Assembly: GCF_020515625.1 (NCBI RefSeq)
Contig: NZ_JAIWPJ010000001.1
Location: 1,116,001 to 1,180,000 of the forward strand
Length of the DNA: 64,000 bases
From: Natrinema amylolyticum
Lineage (GTDB): Archaea; Halobacteriota; Halobacteria; Halobacteriales; Natrialbaceae
Direction of reading: 5' to 3'
Made by a program: the position numbers and the translations under genes. Positions 36,459-46,062 of this stretch are shown one piece after another; positions within the stretch are counted from its first letter, which is position 1; each line of letters starts with the position of its first letter. A model generated the notes under the pieces. It did no database searches. It saw only the letters and a list, made by a program, of their open reading frames with translations, and was not told where the DNA came from.

Positions 36459-37658
36459 CTAATCGGACTCGTTACAGGCTGCGATGATGACGTCGGGATC
36501 GTCGATCAGTCGGTTCTCCATGTAGTTGCCCTTCCCCTTGCCGGCCCACTTGCGTTCCTGATCGATGATCGAGAGAAACTCGAGTTCCGAGAGGATGTCC
36601 CGAACCCGGCGCAGTTTCAGGTGCTCCGAGCCGTCCCGATCACAGAGTCGCTTGTAGAGGTCGTAGGCTTCGTTGGTCGTCACCGGCGCGTTGTCCTCCG
36701 CTTTCTGCTGGGTCAACAGCGCCATCGCCTCGAGAACCAGTTTCGCGTGGCTGGGGCTCTTCGAGATGAGTTCGGCCAGCCGGCTGGTCTCCTCGCGCTC
36801 GTGGGCCTGATCGACGCAGGCCTCCGTGACCCGCTCTCGGTCGGTTTCCTCGGCGATCTCGCCGGCGAAACGGAGGATGTCGATCGCCTTCCGCGCGTCG
36901 CCGTGTTCGCGGGCGGCCAGCGCCGCGACGCGGGGGATGACGCCGTCCTCGAGGACGTCCTCGTGGAAGGCGTCGGCCCGAGTGCGAAGGATCTCTCGAA
37001 TCTGCGTCGCATCGTACGGCGAGAAGACGTACTCGCGCTCACAGAGGCTCGATTTGATCCGCTCGTCCAACGAATCCTTGTATCGGATCTTGTTCGAGAT
37101 ACCGATGACGCCGACGGTGCTCTCGGTGAGTTTCCCGGATTCGACGGCCCGCGAGAGCTGCATCAGGATGTCGTCGTCCTCGATCTTGTCGACCTCGTCC
37201 AAGATGATCAGTGCGACGTCGTAGCGACTGTCGACGATGTGCCACAGGCGGCGGTAGTACTCGGCCGTGCTCAGCCCCGAATGAGGAATCGAGACGTCCG
37301 TCTTGGACTGGTCGTTGAGCTGGTGGCCGGCGGATTGGACGGCCTGGGTCTCGGTCGACTCCTGCAGGCAGTCGACGTACGCGACGCCGATCGAGACGTC
37401 GTTGCCCTCGGCGCGGTCGATCGCCTGATTCGTGATGAACTTCGAGCAGAGGGACTTCCCAGTTCCTGTCTTCCCGTAGACGAGGACGTTGTTCGGCGTG
37501 TTCCCTCGCGTCGCGGGTTTGATCGCGTTCGCGAGGTTCGTCAGCTCGTCCTCGCGGCCGATGATCCGATCGCCGTCGGGGAGATGCGAGACCTGCAGTA
37601 GCTCCTTGTTCCGAAAGATCTCGTTCTCGCTTCCGAAGTAGTCCATCGAATCCGGCAT
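36459..37658 (-). CDS. orc1: Orc1/Cdc6 replication initiator
   Basis: 399 residues, AAA+ ATPase followed by winged helix. Walker A GKTGTGKS at residues 62-69; Walker B LIILDEVD at 150-157; sensor 1 GISNKIRYKDSLDERIKSSL near 186; lid AAREHGDARKAIDILRFAGE near 247. The C-terminal winged helix (about 300-399: SKSPSHAKLVLEAMALLTQQ, LRRVRDILSELEFLSIIDQE) binds origin recognition boxes. Its promoter side faces the repeat-filled non-coding region at 37659-38897, the usual arrangement of archaeal initiator and its own origin. Residue length is normal. Confidence 0.95.
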   Translation of the reverse strand: MPDSMDYFGSENEIFRNKELLQVSHLPDGDRIIGREDELTNLANAIKPATRGNTPNNVLVYGKTGTGKSLCSKFITNQAIDRAEGNDVSIGVAYVDCLQESTETQAVQSAGHQLNDQSKTDVSIPHSGLSTAEYYRRLWHIVDSRYDVALIILDEVDKIEDDDILMQLSRAVESGKLTESTVGVIGISNKIRYKDSLDERIKSSLCEREYVFSPYDATQIREILRTRADAFHEDVLEDGVIPRVAALAAREHGDARKAIDILRFAGEIAEETDRERVTEACVDQAHEREETSRLAELISKSPSHAKLVLEAMALLTQQKAEDNAPVTTNEAYDLYKRLCDRDGSEHLKLRRVRDILSELEFLSIIDQERKWAGKGKGNYMENRLIDDPDVIIAACNESD

Positions 37659-37702
37659 TCAGATACCGGGTACTTTCGGGGTCGGGTACTTAATCGTTCG
37701 GA

Positions 37703-38227
37703 ACCGGAGTGCCGCTGTATACTCGAGATTTTCCGGTTTGAGTGCCTGAGTGAGGAGAAATACACCCCAGGGTGCCGCTGTATAAGCGGTTTCATACCCC
37801 TCGATTCCGCTGTATGAACGGTCCGGTCGTGCTGTCCCGTTGCCGAGGGATCGCGCCTGTATTGATTGAGACCGTCGCGCGCATCGGGAACCCCGGAGTG
37901 CCGCTGTATGGGTGGGACCACACCCCTCGGTGCCGCTGTATAGCCGCCGTAGTTCACTGCGTCACGCGTTGGCGGACCCCGGAGTGCCGCTGTATGGCGA
38001 GATGCCTACGCGACGACGGAAACTACCCGGCAAGCGGTGAGTCAGCAACGGTATAGGCTGGGTCAGACGGCCGTCTCCGGCAGCGGTGGGTCCAGTTCGA
38101 TGGACTGAACGGGTACCGAAGTTCCGCTGTATCGGATGAAAAGAGTTTCCATCGCGCGTGAGTCAGCCGGTTTCCACCCCTCGGTGCCGCTGTATGCGGA
38201 GACACACACCCCGCGGTGCCGCTGTAA
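37703..38227 (+). repeat. Nine ORB-like repeats, same orientation
   Basis: Core consensus CCCC(T/G)CGG(T/A)GTGCCGCTGTAT simplified as CGGTGCCGCTGTAT. Copies: 37703-37720, 37763-37784, 37797-37815, 37889-37910, 37921-37942, 37975-37997, 38114-38132, 38174-38196, 38206-38227. The invariant half is CCGCTGTA; most copies have an ACCCC block just before it, which read on the other strand is a GGGGT G-string, a feature of haloarchaeal origin recognition boxes. The motif differs from the widely known GTTCCA...TGGAAAC boxes, so it is probably specific for this Orc1 paralogue. Confidence 0.85.
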
Positions 38228-38288
38228 CGATGTGGCGGTGTCCGTCGACTCGAAGCGGGGGTCGGGTGGGGAGATTCACAGCACGATC

Positions 38289-38392
38289 GATGGCACGCGA
38301 CGAAATTCGCTATCGATAGTACGCAACGGGATTGACTACCAATAGCACGCGACAAAATTGGCGATCAATGGCACGCGACCGGGCCGGAACAG
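38289..38392 (+). repeat. Four tandem 26-bp iteron-like units
   Basis: Units at 38289-38314, 38315-38340, 38341-38366 and 38367-38392, exactly 26 bp each. Shared frame: (G/A)AT(G/A)G(C/T)ACGC(G/A)AC followed by (G/A)(A/G)(A/G)ATT; units 1 and 3 match at 21 of 26 positions, units 2 and 3 at 17. Regular period and position between the boxes and the AT-rich segment suggest a protein-binding array in the origin. Confidence 0.7.
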
Positions 38393-38421
38393 CGTCGGCA
38401 ACGGGATCACTGCAGAACAGC

Positions 38422-38471
38422 GGTAACGCAGCAACTGAATCAGGAACATCGGTAACGCAGCAACTGAATCA
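38422..38471 (+). repeat. 21-bp direct repeat pair
   Basis: GGTAACGCAGCAACTGAATC plus A occurs at 38422-38442 and again, identically, at 38451-38471, with an 8-base spacer (29-bp period). Confidence 0.8.
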
Positions 38472-38579
38472 ACAGGTATCGTCACGGCAGGGTCAAGGAT
38501 TACAGTTGCTATCCCGAAACGAGGGGTGTCGTTCGACTCGAGCGACAGAGCCGCGTCCAATACCGATTTGACGCATTCT

Positions 38580-38632
38580 CGTCCAATTAACTCAATGAAC
38601 TATAGCACAGTATTAGTATTTAGTATTGGTGA
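38580..38632. other. AT-rich putative DNA unwinding element
   Basis: A sharp AT-rich stretch in GC-rich surroundings, including three AGTATT words at 38609-38614, 38615-38620 and 38622-38627. Its location between the nine direct boxes and the inverted box fits a duplex unwinding element. Confidence 0.6.
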
Positions 38633-38727
38633 TCCTCGCCGACCCTCAAATCGGGGGTAACCGCTATCGAACAGTTACTGAGAATGGGACCCAGTGATTC
38701 CTCGGGGTAGCAGCCATCTCGTAGACC

Positions 38728-38750
38728 TATACAGCGGCACCGCGGGGTGT
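38728..38750 (-). repeat. Inverted ORB-like repeat
   Basis: TATACAGCGGCACCGCGGGG at its start, followed by TGT; the reverse complement matches the copy at 38206-38227 closely (ACACCCCGCGGTGCCGCTGTA). This is the only copy in opposite orientation and it sits on the far side of the AT-rich segment. Confidence 0.8.
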
Positions 38751-38776
38751 GTCTCTACATCCATCAACTGAAGCAC

Positions 38777-38814
38777 TGACGTCTGAGTAACTGAGTGACG
38801 CCTGAGTAACTGAG
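38777..38814 (+). repeat. 19-bp tandem repeat
   Basis: TGACGTCTGAGTAACTGAG (38777-38795) is followed immediately by TGACGCCTGAGTAACTGAG (38796-38814), one mismatch. It lies between the inverted box and the hisH stop codon. Confidence 0.75.
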
Positions 38815-38897
38815 AAGCGAACAGCAATATCGGAAGCAAACAGCGACCGGAGACCGGAGACCTAGCGGTCTCGTGCGGACCCAGCGGTCCCGTGTGA

Positions 38898-39560
38898 CTA
38901 CTCGTCGGCGCAGATCTCGACGAAGTTCCGCAGGATTTGTAGTCCCGTCTCACCGCTCTTCTCGGGGTGGAACTGCGTTCCGAAGACGGTTCCCTCATCG
39001 TTGGCTACGATCGAGGGGAACTCGCGCTCGTAGTCCGTCGTCGCGACCGTCGCGTCCTCGTCGTCCGGAGCCGCGTAGTAGGAGTGGACGAAGTAGGCGT
39101 AGTTGCCGTCAACCCCCTCTACGAGCGGGTGGTCACGCTGGACGTGGAGTTCGTTCCAACCCATGTGCGGAACCTTCTGGCCCTCGGCGAACCGGACGTT
39201 CGTTCCGGGGATCAGATCCAGGCCCTGGACGGCCGACTCACCGTCGTTGTCACCCTCCTCGCTGGTCGTGAGCAGCATCTGCATGCCGAGACAGATCCCG
39301 AACAGAGGGGTGCCGCTCTCGGCCACCTCGAGGAGGTCCTCGCGGAGCGGGTCGGCGTTCTCGACGCCTTCCCGAAACGCGCCGACGCCGGGGAGGACGA
39401 CGCCGTCGGCCGCGGCGAAGGCCGCGGGATCGTCGGTGATCTCGACGTCGGCACCCGCGCGCTCGAGACCGCGAGTAACGCTGCGGAGGTTCCCGAGCCC
39501 GTAGTCGACGATGACGACGGAAGCGAGAGACTGCTCCTGTGGAGACGAAACGGTGCTCAT
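38898..39560 (-). CDS. hisH: Imidazole glycerol phosphate synthase, glutaminase subunit
   Basis: 220 residues from ATG 39560. Class I glutamine amidotransferase: VVIVDYGLGNLRSVTRGLER at the N-terminus, VVLPGVGAF oxyanion strand, nucleophile Cys 90 in GTPLFGICLGMQML, and His/Glu in GTQFHPEKSGETGLQILRNF at the end. It supplies ammonia to HisF in histidine synthesis; hisF is not in the window. The open frame to 39632 overlaps the neighbour's end and its residues are not family-like. Confidence 0.95.
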   Translation of the reverse strand: MSTVSSPQEQSLASVVIVDYGLGNLRSVTRGLERAGADVEITDDPAAFAAADGVVLPGVGAFREGVENADPLREDLLEVAESGTPLFGICLGMQMLLTTSEEGDNDGESAVQGLDLIPGTNVRFAEGQKVPHMGWNELHVQRDHPLVEGVDGNYAYFVHSYYAAPDDEDATVATTDYEREFPSIVANDEGTVFGTQFHPEKSGETGLQILRNFVEICADE

Positions 39561-39628
39561 ACGCGTACTCGGAGCGGCGCGTTGAAGTGAATTACCCTTC
39601 GGGCAACCGGCTGCTACTCGAGTTTCGG

Positions 39629-40072
39629 TCAATCGCTCGCGGGCTCGGCCGTCCCGCCGCCCTCATCGCCGTCGCGACCGCCGAGACGCTGCCGTCGCCG
39701 GTACACGTAGTACCCGATCGCCGGGACCGAGAGCAGGTACGGAACCGCCAGGACCGCTCCGGCGAAGTGACTGAGTCCGAGCCCGCCCGCGAGCCACGGA
39801 TTCGGATTCCACGCCGGATGTTCTCGCAGCCCGAGCGCGTCCATGACTAACGCGACCGCCACGACAACGGCGAACAGGTACGACAGCCAGCCGGCGAGGA
39901 CGGTCACGACGAAGGAGGCCAGTCCGACGCCGAGAGACTCTGTGTCAGCAGTCTGGACGAAGAGACGGAGCGCAGCGTTGGAGGTCAGCGTCGAGAGCGG
40001 TGCGATCGGAAACAGGTACGCGCCGTACCGCCACGCGGGATCAGCGGGCCCGAATTCGGAGCCGGGGGACAT
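39629..40072 (-). CDS. Membrane protein of unknown function
   Basis: 147 residues with about three to four hydrophobic segments: GYLFPIAPLS region near 18-27 is weak, then LASFVVTVLAGWLSYLFAVV, VVAVALVMDALG and GAVLAVPYLLSVPAIGYYVY, ending in a basic/acidic tail (RRRQRLGGRDGDEGG). The positive-inside rule places the tail in the cytoplasm. It lies 68 bases upstream of hisH on the same strand; a functional link is not evident. Confidence 0.7.
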   Translation of the reverse strand: MSPGSEFGPADPAWRYGAYLFPIAPLSTLTSNAALRLFVQTADTESLGVGLASFVVTVLAGWLSYLFAVVVAVALVMDALGLREHPAWNPNPWLAGGLGLSHFAGAVLAVPYLLSVPAIGYYVYRRRQRLGGRDGDEGGGTAEPASD

Positions 40073-43787: not shown

Positions 43788-44315
43788 TTACTCGACTTCC
43801 TCGACTTCCTCGTCTTCCTCATCGGCCAGATAGTCCTCCTGAACTGCGACGACCTCGCTCGAGTCCGCACACTCGCTGTACCGGCGCAGCGGTTCCTCGT
43901 TGAGCGTCAGGAAGGTCTCGCCCCAGCGGAACGGCTCAAGTAAGTCCTCGGCTCGCTCCCACTCGTCGAAGATGCAACATGCACCGGCGAGCGCCTCGAC
44001 GGTGGTCAACCGGAACGGACGGCCGTAGTTGATCGGGTTCGCGGCGACGAGAAAGGGGAGCGCTCGGTGGACTCCGCGCATCTGAAACGACGCTTCCTCG
44101 GCGGACTCCCAGGAGCAATCGAGGGCCACCAGCGTCCCCAGTCCCTCCTCGAGATCGGCCGGTGAGAGCGCCTGCTCGGCGTGGGGGTTCAACACGACCC
44201 CGTAGGGAACCTGCCCCATCGACCGATGGAGGATCGCCTTATCGAACTTCTCGAGGCGACGCGCGGTACACTTCTCGGGGTCGTCGTCGCCCTCGTAGTA
44301 CACGTGACACTCCAC
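43788..44315 (-). CDS. tsr3: 18S/16S rRNA aminocarboxypropyltransferase Tsr3
   Basis: 175 residues from GTG 44315. The family start is [20 protein letters not shown], then [31 protein letters not shown] and [20 protein letters not shown], core motifs of Tsr3 (formerly DUF367), which transfers the 3-amino-3-carboxypropyl group from SAM to the small-subunit rRNA. The C-terminal tail is very acidic ([13 protein letters not shown]). GTG is preferred because homologues begin with this sequence, though the reading frame stays open up to 44612 and encodes a hydrophobic stretch (see findings). Confidence 0.92.
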
Positions 44316-44844
44316 GCGAGGCGATACGGCCGGCCGAGAGAAAAGAACCCCGGAACGCGAGTCAGTACCGCCCGACTGTCCGGGAAGCGTTTTCCGCGCC
44401 CTGTCTGGCCGGCCCCCGTCGGAACACCAGCCGTCTGTCAGGAGGTGCCACGCGAGACCGCCGACGAAACAGAGCAAAGCGGGACCCAGCAAAACGAGCC
44501 CGTCGGGCCGGAGCGCGGCATCGGCCGCGAGTAACACACGGCCGATCAGCGAGGACTGATTCAGATATCGTATCTTCACAGCATTGTGACTGCTAAGACT
44601 GGTACTTCCCAACCGACGTAATCAGCTAAATCGTATCGACGAGTTGATCATGAGAAAGTCTGCGTCTGGATGTGTTCAGCATCCGTTTACAGCCGTCGTC
44701 CGACCGCGAAAGGGTGGGCGCGACCTGCCCGAACAGTTCACATTCCAGACGTTCTGTGGCTGGATTCGCCACGAACTAGAAGCAGAGGTAGCGCGGCGGT
44801 GGAAGATCGAGACGAACGTATCGGCGTCCCGACGCGTACGCTCC

Positions 44845-44873
44845 GGTCGCGGGCTGACGGCCAGCCCGCGACC
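44845..44873. repeat. Perfect 11-bp inverted repeat
   Basis: Arms GGTCGCGGGCT and AGCCCGCGACC separated by GACGGCC. As RNA it would form a very stable hairpin. No T-run follows, so an ordinary terminator is unlikely. Confidence 0.75.
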
Positions 44874-44971
44874 TTGGGCCGGCGAGTCTTCAGTAACAGT
44901 ACTCGTCAGAAACCGCTTTAACTCCCTCCTTCACGCTGAGGTCAACACTCAGTTTTCAGCGTGCCTAAATA

Positions 44972-44979
44972 CTTTATAC
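44972..44979 (+). promoter_or_regulatory. TATA box of the low-GC membrane gene
   Basis: CTTTATAC, centred about 25 bases before ATG 45000, in AT-rich DNA; implies a leaderless transcript starting essentially at the ATG. Confidence 0.65.
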
Positions 44980-44999
44980 TCCTCACATCAAAATTAAAT

Positions 45000-45902
45000 A
45001 TGAAATATAATACAGAAAACTCGGTAGTTTCACCGGATGGATTGGGTCCTCGATTCGGCGTGCTCGTCGGCAGCTACGTAGCCGCGCTGATTGCGCCGAC
45101 GCTTACTCTGTTCACTGTGGAGTATTTGGGCTTGCGCAGCAAAGTGCTTGCATTCGCCGTTCTAGGAACGATCGGTATTACTATCGGTTCCGGGACGGCA
45201 TTCCTAACAACCGACAACGGACAAATAGCCTCTTGGCTGAACTCAGGTTGGGTAGCCTGGCTCTTCCCGCTTCTCGGACTCGTTCCAATAATGGCTTACC
45301 ATTTTAGTGTCCTCGAGGTGGTCGCTGTCTATCTCATTGACCCGGCTTCCATCCCCGTGTCAAGTCTCGTCGGTGCGACTGGGTTCCTACTCGGGATTGT
45401 CGCAGCTGGGGCAGGTGAGATCGCCATACGAGCGGCTCGTAATCGGGTTGCGTCTTCCGCTATCGCATCCGAGAACGTCCTGATAGAATGGACTTCCAGG
45501 TGGCCGCGGGCTCACAAAATAAGAGTGCAGATATTCACCATGGTCACTGGATTGGTCCTAGTTGGGCTACTTTCATTTTGGCTTCCTCCACATCTGACTG
45601 TGTTAACTGCTCTCGTTGTCGTCGTCACAGTATCTAGTACAACAAACACAGTGCTGTCTGATAGAGCCTATAAGCTTACTCCGGCTGGGTTAGAGCTTCG
45701 TCGGAGTGGAAGTGGAAAATTGGTAACCTGGCGCCAATTTATACCAATGTCACAGATAAAATACGTTACAGTGTTGGAGAACCATGTAATATTACATCGA
45801 TCCGGTCTTTTACCGAGTATTCGATTCGATCGAAACGATCTCCGGTTTGATGACGAAGAAATCATCAATAATCTCGGAGAATATCTTAATAGACGAGAAT
45901 AA
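45000..45902 (+). CDS. Low-GC membrane protein with PH-like C-terminal domain
   Basis: 300 residues from ATG 45000. Around seven hydrophobic segments in the first 215 residues (VLVGSYVAALIAPTLTLFTV; VLAFAVLGTIGITIGSGTAF; FTMVTGLVLVGLLSFWLPPH), then a strand-rich tail AYKLTPAGLELRRSGSGKLV, SQIKYVTVLENHVILHRSGL, like a bacterial PH domain, ending in an amphipathic helix (EEIINNLGEYLNRRE). Codon use is visibly less GC-rich than all neighbours (many A/T third positions: AAATATAATACAGAAAAC), and the protein is less acidic. Recent transfer is inferred. Not similar in detail to the gene at 42848, but the layout is. Confidence 0.75.
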   Translation: MKYNTENSVVSPDGLGPRFGVLVGSYVAALIAPTLTLFTVEYLGLRSKVLAFAVLGTIGITIGSGTAFLTTDNGQIASWLNSGWVAWLFPLLGLVPIMAYHFSVLEVVAVYLIDPASIPVSSLVGATGFLLGIVAAGAGEIAIRAARNRVASSAIASENVLIEWTSRWPRAHKIRVQIFTMVTGLVLVGLLSFWLPPHLTVLTALVVVVTVSSTTNTVLSDRAYKLTPAGLELRRSGSGKLVTWRQFIPMSQIKYVTVLENHVILHRSGLLPSIRFDRNDLRFDDEEIINNLGEYLNRRE

Positions 45903-46062
45903 GGTGACACAGATCCGTCCCATAGCGTGATAACCCTGCCTTACGGAGCGTCTTCTTGCCCTGTGCTTTCGCCTCGTCGTCGCTATCACAAACTACGAAC
46001 ACGGAGACGATCCGGGAAGCACGATCATCACGATGTGAGAGGAGTTCTATGACACCCTCCAT
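45886..46062 (-). CDS. Small hypothetical protein, doubtful
   Basis: A 58-residue frame from ATG 46062: MEGVIELLSHRDDRASRIVS, then VFVVCDSDDEAKAQGKKTLR and KAGLSRYGTDLCHLILVY. The strand-helix-strand order (VFVVCDSD, EAKAQGKKTLRKAGL, DLCHLILVY) looks protein-like. It overlaps the end of the low-GC gene by 17 bases. Starts upstream are Arg-rich and unlikely. No family recognised. Confidence 0.4.
   Translation of the reverse strand: MEGVIELLSHRDDRASRIVSVFVVCDSDDEAKAQGKKTLRKAGLSRYGTDLCHLILVY

Follow-up and report, generated by a model that had tools for sequence, protein, structure and literature searches.

The window, that is, the whole stretch of 64,000 nucleotides of Natrinema amylolyticum DNA that was analysed, contains an orc1/cdc6 gene and hisH on the same strand, and the interval between them carries a cluster of repeats that a preliminary description had taken for the ORB-like boxes of a replication origin. 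The features of this interval and its borders are as follows (window coordinates; numbers preceded by a minus sign are offsets from the orc ATG).

36459 to 37658, minus strand: orc1/cdc6 initiator gene, 399 aa, an Orc of the class termed A below (TIGR02928, E 7e-126)
37677 to 37704, minus strand: putative orc promoter, BRE plus TATA, here CGAACGATTAAG (conserved column block in 24 loci)
37699 to 37719, minus strand: proximal ORB (-61) in contact with the BRE, its G-string degenerate (GGTTCC; box alignment and locus comparison)
37764 to 37782, minus strand: direct ORB (-124; CCGCTGTA match)
37796 to 37814, minus strand: direct ORB (-156), 32 bp from the -124 box (CCGCTGTA match and spacing)
37890 to 37908, minus strand: direct ORB (-250; CCGCTGTA match)
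37922 to 37940, minus strand: direct ORB (-282), 32 bp from the -250 box (CCGCTGTA match and spacing)
37976 to 37994, minus strand: direct ORB (-336; CCGCTGTA match)
38113 to 38131, minus strand: direct ORB (-473), weak G-string GGTACC (CCGCTGTA match)
38176 to 38194, minus strand: direct ORB (-536; CCGCTGTA match)
38203 to 38226, minus strand: distal-most direct ORB (-568), full extended G-string GGGGTGTGTGTCTC, one putative wall of the core origin (GGGGTG at the same rank in 30/31 loci)
38227 to 38729, no strand: gap between the two full boxes, 503 bp, 53.5% GC, within which the presumed unwinding element lies (GC scan)
38514 to 38631, minus strand: second conserved element, with TATA-like TAAATACTA, GTTCATTGAGT and the 8-mers ATTGGACG, CGTCAAAT and ATTGGACG (HMM, 6e-28)
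38730 to 38753, plus strand: single inverted ORB, full extended G-string, the other putative wall of the core origin (GGGGTG in 31/31 loci)
38898 to 39632, minus strand: hisH, conserved distal neighbour of the chromosomal form of the origin (TIGR01855 and synteny)

The reported adjacency of the repeats to orc1 was borne out, the neighbouring gene encoding a full Orc1/Cdc6 (>300 aa) whose AAA+ and winged-helix domains both aligned to PDB 2qby_A and 2v1u_A. The consensus block CGAACG-TTTAAG lies approximately 32-43 bp before the orc ATG, with the last box of the array directly upstream, and probably represents the orc BRE and TATA. The setting seen in the window, hisH - origin - orc - SWIM protein - trm1, was found in most orthologues of >90% identity, and the Orc proteins of most chromosomal copies share 90-97% identity. 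Elsewhere in the window, positions 44000-46000 are AT-rich (55% GC versus approximately 65%) and may be a small acquired island.

Ten copies of CCGCTGTA were located within 37712-38737, a span of approximately 1.03 kb. Nine are on the plus strand (starts 37712, 37775, 37807, 37901, 37933, 37987, 38124, 38187 and 38219) and one on the minus strand (start 38730), which places the direct copies at -568, -536, -473, -336, -282, -250, -156, -124 and -61 from the orc ATG and the inverted copy at -1079. Across the entire window CCGCTGTA occurs 14 times against 1.07 expected, a total of 14 or more being reached in 0 of 100 shuffles; the ten-copy motif is therefore real. On the orc strand the box consensus reads ATACAGCGGCAC-NNN-GGGGTG, in which C/A-A stands beside the core and a variable stretch precedes the G-string; the 8-bp core served as the search string and is invariant for that reason. 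Seven of the ten boxes satisfy TACAGCGGCA-N4-GGGGT, the remaining three having GGTACC, GGTTCC or an AAT variant. The C-rich block said to adjoin the copies was recovered as CACCCC[TG]CGG before most plus-strand boxes and corresponds to a G-string when read on the strand of orc. Across the whole genome (4.7 Mb) the strict pattern TACAGCGGCA-N4-GGGGT matched seven times, always at this locus, so that the scattering of boxes away from orc genes that would have spoken against an origin was not seen. A looser 11-mer, TGCCGCTGTAT, gave 11 genome matches, seven here and four elsewhere, the latter number being close to the two matches of a reversed-pattern control.

The nine direct boxes are spread unevenly, forming pairs 32 bp apart and steps of 63 bp; the orc-proximal box lies 53 bp from the start codon, touching the putative promoter. 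Helical phase was assessed at 10.5 bp and gave R 0.60 for all spacings and R 0.10 for unique spacings. Since the unique spacings are unphased, general helical phasing of the boxes was dropped and no phasing is claimed beyond the recurrent 32/63-bp steps.

The disposition of the boxes, nine direct and one inverted around an AT-rich segment, agrees with the coordinates, the AT-rich stretch lying at 38586-38685 (59% AT) and reaching 71% AT at 38590-38630. The preliminary description had called this 9:1 asymmetry odd. Comparison with 30 other Natrialbaceae loci (Orc 79-95% identical, one locus on a megaplasmid; 31 loci including the window) revealed it instead to be a conserved design of the class, while the sister class described below has the reversed asymmetry. 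The other loci possess 5-20 direct boxes each, and 29 of the 30 possess exactly one inverted box (three in L048), which in every locus is situated 0.5-1.4 kb upstream, past the AT-rich gap. Spacings of 63/64 and 32/33 bp are kept for the three orc-nearest boxes in nearly all loci, and the distal end of the array mostly repeats a 32 + 63 bp step. A full GGGGTG is present in the distal-most direct box of 30/31 loci and in the inverted box of 31/31, in 75/184 internal boxes, and in none of the 31 proximal boxes. On the strength of this pattern of G-string and position, the 9:1 asymmetry is more aptly divided into two parts, an inverted core of 1:1 and, on the side of the initiator gene, an array of eight boxes. 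An earlier description of this conserved layout of two full boxes and an array was not found in the available text of the literature. An expanded array in Natrarchaeobius chitinivorans (L042, approximately 980-1790) comprises 20 direct boxes, with steps of 33-36 bp between many of them, yet has a single inverted box.

Boxes and initiator are inherited, and lost, together. Among 125 Natrialbaceae genomes, 62 encode an orthologue of this orc (threshold E up to 1e-190) and all 62 carry at least two strict boxes; of the 63 orc-negative genomes, 56 have no strict box and seven retain boxes. Two of these seven have a damaged gene (orc interrupted in G265 and truncated in G016), and three (G002, G273 and G276) lack orc but keep 1-2 relic boxes in the interval from hisH to the SWIM/trm1 genes. 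In the last two, G314 and G316, one or two boxes occur at loci where no neighbouring gene was recognised. Decayed copies of this locus account for at least five of the seven, and orc and boxes evidently decay together in nature. The synteny points to a chromosomal site of old standing, lost on repeated occasions. As approximately half of the family genomes are without the locus, the origin is not essential in general, and the presence in all haloarchaea that marks oriC1 does not extend to it. Relic origins with a broken or missing orc and 1-6 boxes were seen at L095, L096, L097, L098, L099 and L090, several recognisable by hisH-SWIM-trm1 synteny. The orc match begins at residue 15-16 in L045 (Natrinema versiforme JCM 10478) and in G026:C63; in G026 a TAG lies within the orc frame, and an intact relative resides on plasmid pNVE414 (L112).

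The preliminary description had proposed a separate Orc1 specificity class, and this proposal gains support from the match between box type and Orc clade as well as from the joint loss of boxes and orc. The Orcs in question, here class A, form one clade of 41 proteins (support 100/100) with 40 TACAGCGG members and one TACATCGG variant. Boxes of the TACAGCGG type accompany Orcs of 61-97% identity across several haloarchaeal families; those of 61-65% identity are encoded on megaplasmids and chromosomes of Haladaptatus, Haloarcula, Halobellus, Halorubrum and others, where the loci examined have TTACAGCGGCAAC boxes arranged 6:1 or approximately 3:2. The sister clade, class B, has Orcs of 54-58% identity and the box TTTCACCGGAAAC. 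A class B paralogue with this box is also present in the N. amylolyticum genome (L013, G000:C1:821704-822879), and its origin resembles the locus in having multiple boxes around an AT-rich gap and the same directional GTCCAYTRAGT element. Unlike class A, class B origins usually have 2-3 direct boxes close to orc, with a larger number of inverted ones further out. The genome holds 12 Orc/Cdc6-like matches besides the locus orc. The paralogue flanks are without a cluster of the class A box. Some possess other repeats, among them CACCGGAAAC at L013, TCGAGTG together with AGGTGTCG at L014, and ACACATCGATAGAGG at L019.

The winged helix and the initiator-specific motif of Orc contact the ORB. Fixed differences between classes A and B fall partly within the wHD (K348/S, S357/K, L359/H, S363/D, G375/A, K376/E and N382/H). 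L116, on a plasmid of Natrinema sp. SYSU A 869, is nested in class A and has the box TACATCGGCA, seen upstream of 2501; its Orc has R at 348 (instead of K) and H at 382. Judged by box and residues, L116 is a natural specificity variant. An A/B specificity split within one genome was not found described in the accessible text of earlier work.

The gap holds a second conserved feature. The lowest-GC 50-bp window of the locus falls inside the gap in 29 of 30 loci, the exception (L053) having a misplaced start coordinate in the calculation. An HMM search found the gap element once per locus, on the orc strand, in all 31 loci (window included). Over approximately 110 bp it comprises, in order, TAAATACTA, CTGTGT, GTCCATTGAGT and three 8-mers (forward, reverse, forward), with GTCCAYTRAGT approximately 24 bp after the TATA-like box; the three 8-mers covary between species. 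At L029 and L045, 8-mer copies 2 and 3 have been lost. The core GWYCAYTRAGTNNAT matches twice in the N. amylolyticum genome, once at this locus and once upstream of the class B orc. In the 125 genomes, 27 of its 91 matches lie no more than 1.6 kb upstream of an orc gene, which belongs to class A in 13 cases and to class B in 14, and without exception these 27 are on the orc strand; far fewer than one would be expected near orc by base count, although the pattern was partly drawn from such loci. In tests for an RNA structure in the element, two alternative helices covary equally, the RNAalifold energy is near zero, single-strand folds are mostly unexceptional and the ratio of G-T to A-C mismatches is only approximately 2:1. 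The sole match to an Rfam family in 37600-38950 was a chance one below the cutoff. Class A origins of other families (L077, L078, L079, L080, L081 and L113) have a different candidate gap element upstream of orc, consisting of a TTTAT-like box followed by CTTTNGC(G/C) repeats with inverted-repeat arms.

A conserved motif that lies between inverted ORBs and is common to origins with different initiators is also what defines the Sulfolobus ucm, an essential sequence inside the DUE to which UBP, a protein that contacts MCM, binds (PMC12141716). Sulfolobus oriC1, with its order ORB3-DUE-ORB2, resembles the present locus in its inverted ORBs, AT-rich unwinding element and non-ORB motif shared across initiators (PMC12141716). 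The haloarchaeal gap element differs from ucm in having a TATA-like companion and a fixed orientation to orc, and the likeness appears to be one of position and sharing. As A and B are sister classes, shared descent explains the common element; its apparent persistence despite ORB divergence argues for a function. That an element common to two box classes is a haloarchaeal ucm counterpart, or an origin promoter that aids opening through its transcript or through melting, and acts independently of the ORB code, is a tentative proposal to which we give somewhat less than even odds. Were it an origin promoter, GTTCATTGAG near 38.59 kb on the minus strand would be a candidate transcript start. The gap element has apparently not been described earlier in the text available to us, and a literature search with its motif string returned no related description among the matches listed.

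Diverse Orc-family-specific ORBs with G-strings were described in 2012 for 15 haloarchaeal genomes, according to the main text of that study (Wu et al., PMC3528665), and the box class is therefore not new in principle. The origins in that text likewise have family-specific G-string ORBs beside orc, inverted around an AT-rich stretch, and the Orc family is linked to the ORB sequence. The nearest box it contains, TAACAGCGGAAACAGTGGGGTGGGGGGGT of H. lacusprofundi and H. walsbyi, differs from TACAGCGGCA-N4-GGGGTGTG; the exact box is absent from the text, and the logos of Figure 2B or the additional files may depict the class. The box string was not found in a search of the haloarchaeal literature. 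In Haloarcula hispanica each origin depends on its own cdc6, and the ORB-rich oriC2D restrains oriC2, likely by titration (PMC3936714). The oriC2-cdc6E/oriC2D system is similar in its large ORB surplus linked to one cdc6, but the 11 ORBs of oriC2D lie downstream of cdc6E, whereas the surplus here is upstream, between core and orc promoter, in one orientation. No experiment on a class A origin was found in the literature. For class B, primer 3R of ARS-3 from Natrinema sp. J7 (PMC5350488) matches locus L195 with one mismatch approximately 200 bp after orc, and primer 3F can be placed in L162, approximately 1.7 kb upstream, if five mismatches are allowed. These matches suggest that the ARS-3 plasmid pFJ3, which gave approximately 39 transformants per microgram (PMC5350488), carries a class B origin. 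Two J7 ARS primers had no match in 29 genomes of the genus.

The repeated G-string boxes, the inverted pair flanking an AT-rich segment and the position beside orc constitute the architecture of an origin, as had been proposed. We consider it probable (approximately 0.85) that the locus is an orc1/cdc6-dependent origin of a Natrialbaceae main chromosome, composed of an inverted core pair, an array and the gap element. Orc1 would bind TACAGCGGCA-N4-GGGGTGTG, an ORB that is specific to the class and includes the G-string of haloarchaea. The inverted full-length boxes at 38203-38226 and 38730-38753 would form the core on both sides of the AT-rich gap; occupying them with opposite polarity, Orc1 would open this gap and load MCM. 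The remaining eight boxes share one direction, most of them have a weakened G-string, and distances of 32 or 63 bp between them are frequent. They would form an array ending in the orc promoter that may autoregulate orc and/or titrate Orc1, limiting initiation (compare oriC2D). The directional gap element, with its TATA-like box and GTCCAYTRAGT, probably helps opening or loading.

GC skew displayed no clear turning point at the locus, and given the 12 other Orc/Cdc6-like matches in the genome, this could be a weak origin or a dormant one. Dormancy or decay, with a sequence that is intact and goes unused in the wild type, would accord with the patchy presence (62/125 genomes), the decayed copies in relatives and the few transformants obtained with the J7 ARS-3 plasmid suggested by primer mapping to carry the sister class. 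There are also precedents, since oriC4 of Haloferax mediterranei is dormant (PMC4595724) and, in the text of PMC3528665, two predicted ORB-bearing origins of H. hispanica were without ARS activity. The intact orc ORF, box spacings and gap element in the window, and the high Orc identity among most chromosomal copies, speak against this reading, and on balance we regard dormancy as possible but doubtful.

It is unlikely that the boxes are mainly operators through which an Orc paralogue regulates its own promoter at a site that does not fire. In nearly all loci the proximal box does abut the BRE/TATA of orc with a constant offset, the three nearest boxes stand at -61, -124 and -156, and Orc regulators that are not initiators exist, for instance Sulfolobus Orc1-2 (PMC9738581, as far as its available text goes). 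However, operators leave unexplained both the single inverted full box 0.5-1.4 kb upstream beyond the AT-rich gap and the G-string preference of the two gap-flanking boxes; operator and origin roles are, moreover, compatible. Less probable still is an integrated plasmid or virus replicon in place of a resident chromosomal origin. Relatives of 79-87% identity include megaplasmid copies, such as that on pNVE414 of N. versiforme, and relatives of 61-65% are found on megaplasmids of other families. Against this, the window copy lies in the conserved chromosomal setting between hisH and trm1, no match was found among 50,697 phage records, and 44 viral contigs had one box pattern each (background) and none had two.

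The conserved division into two full boxes and a weaker array ending in the orc promoter makes initiator autoregulation or titration directly testable. Two sister Orc classes with different boxes in one genome, together with the L116 variant, provide a clean set for a change of Orc1 specificity, with few candidate residues to explain such a shift in archaea. The shared gap element, if functional, would extend the recently found ucm principle to haloarchaea.
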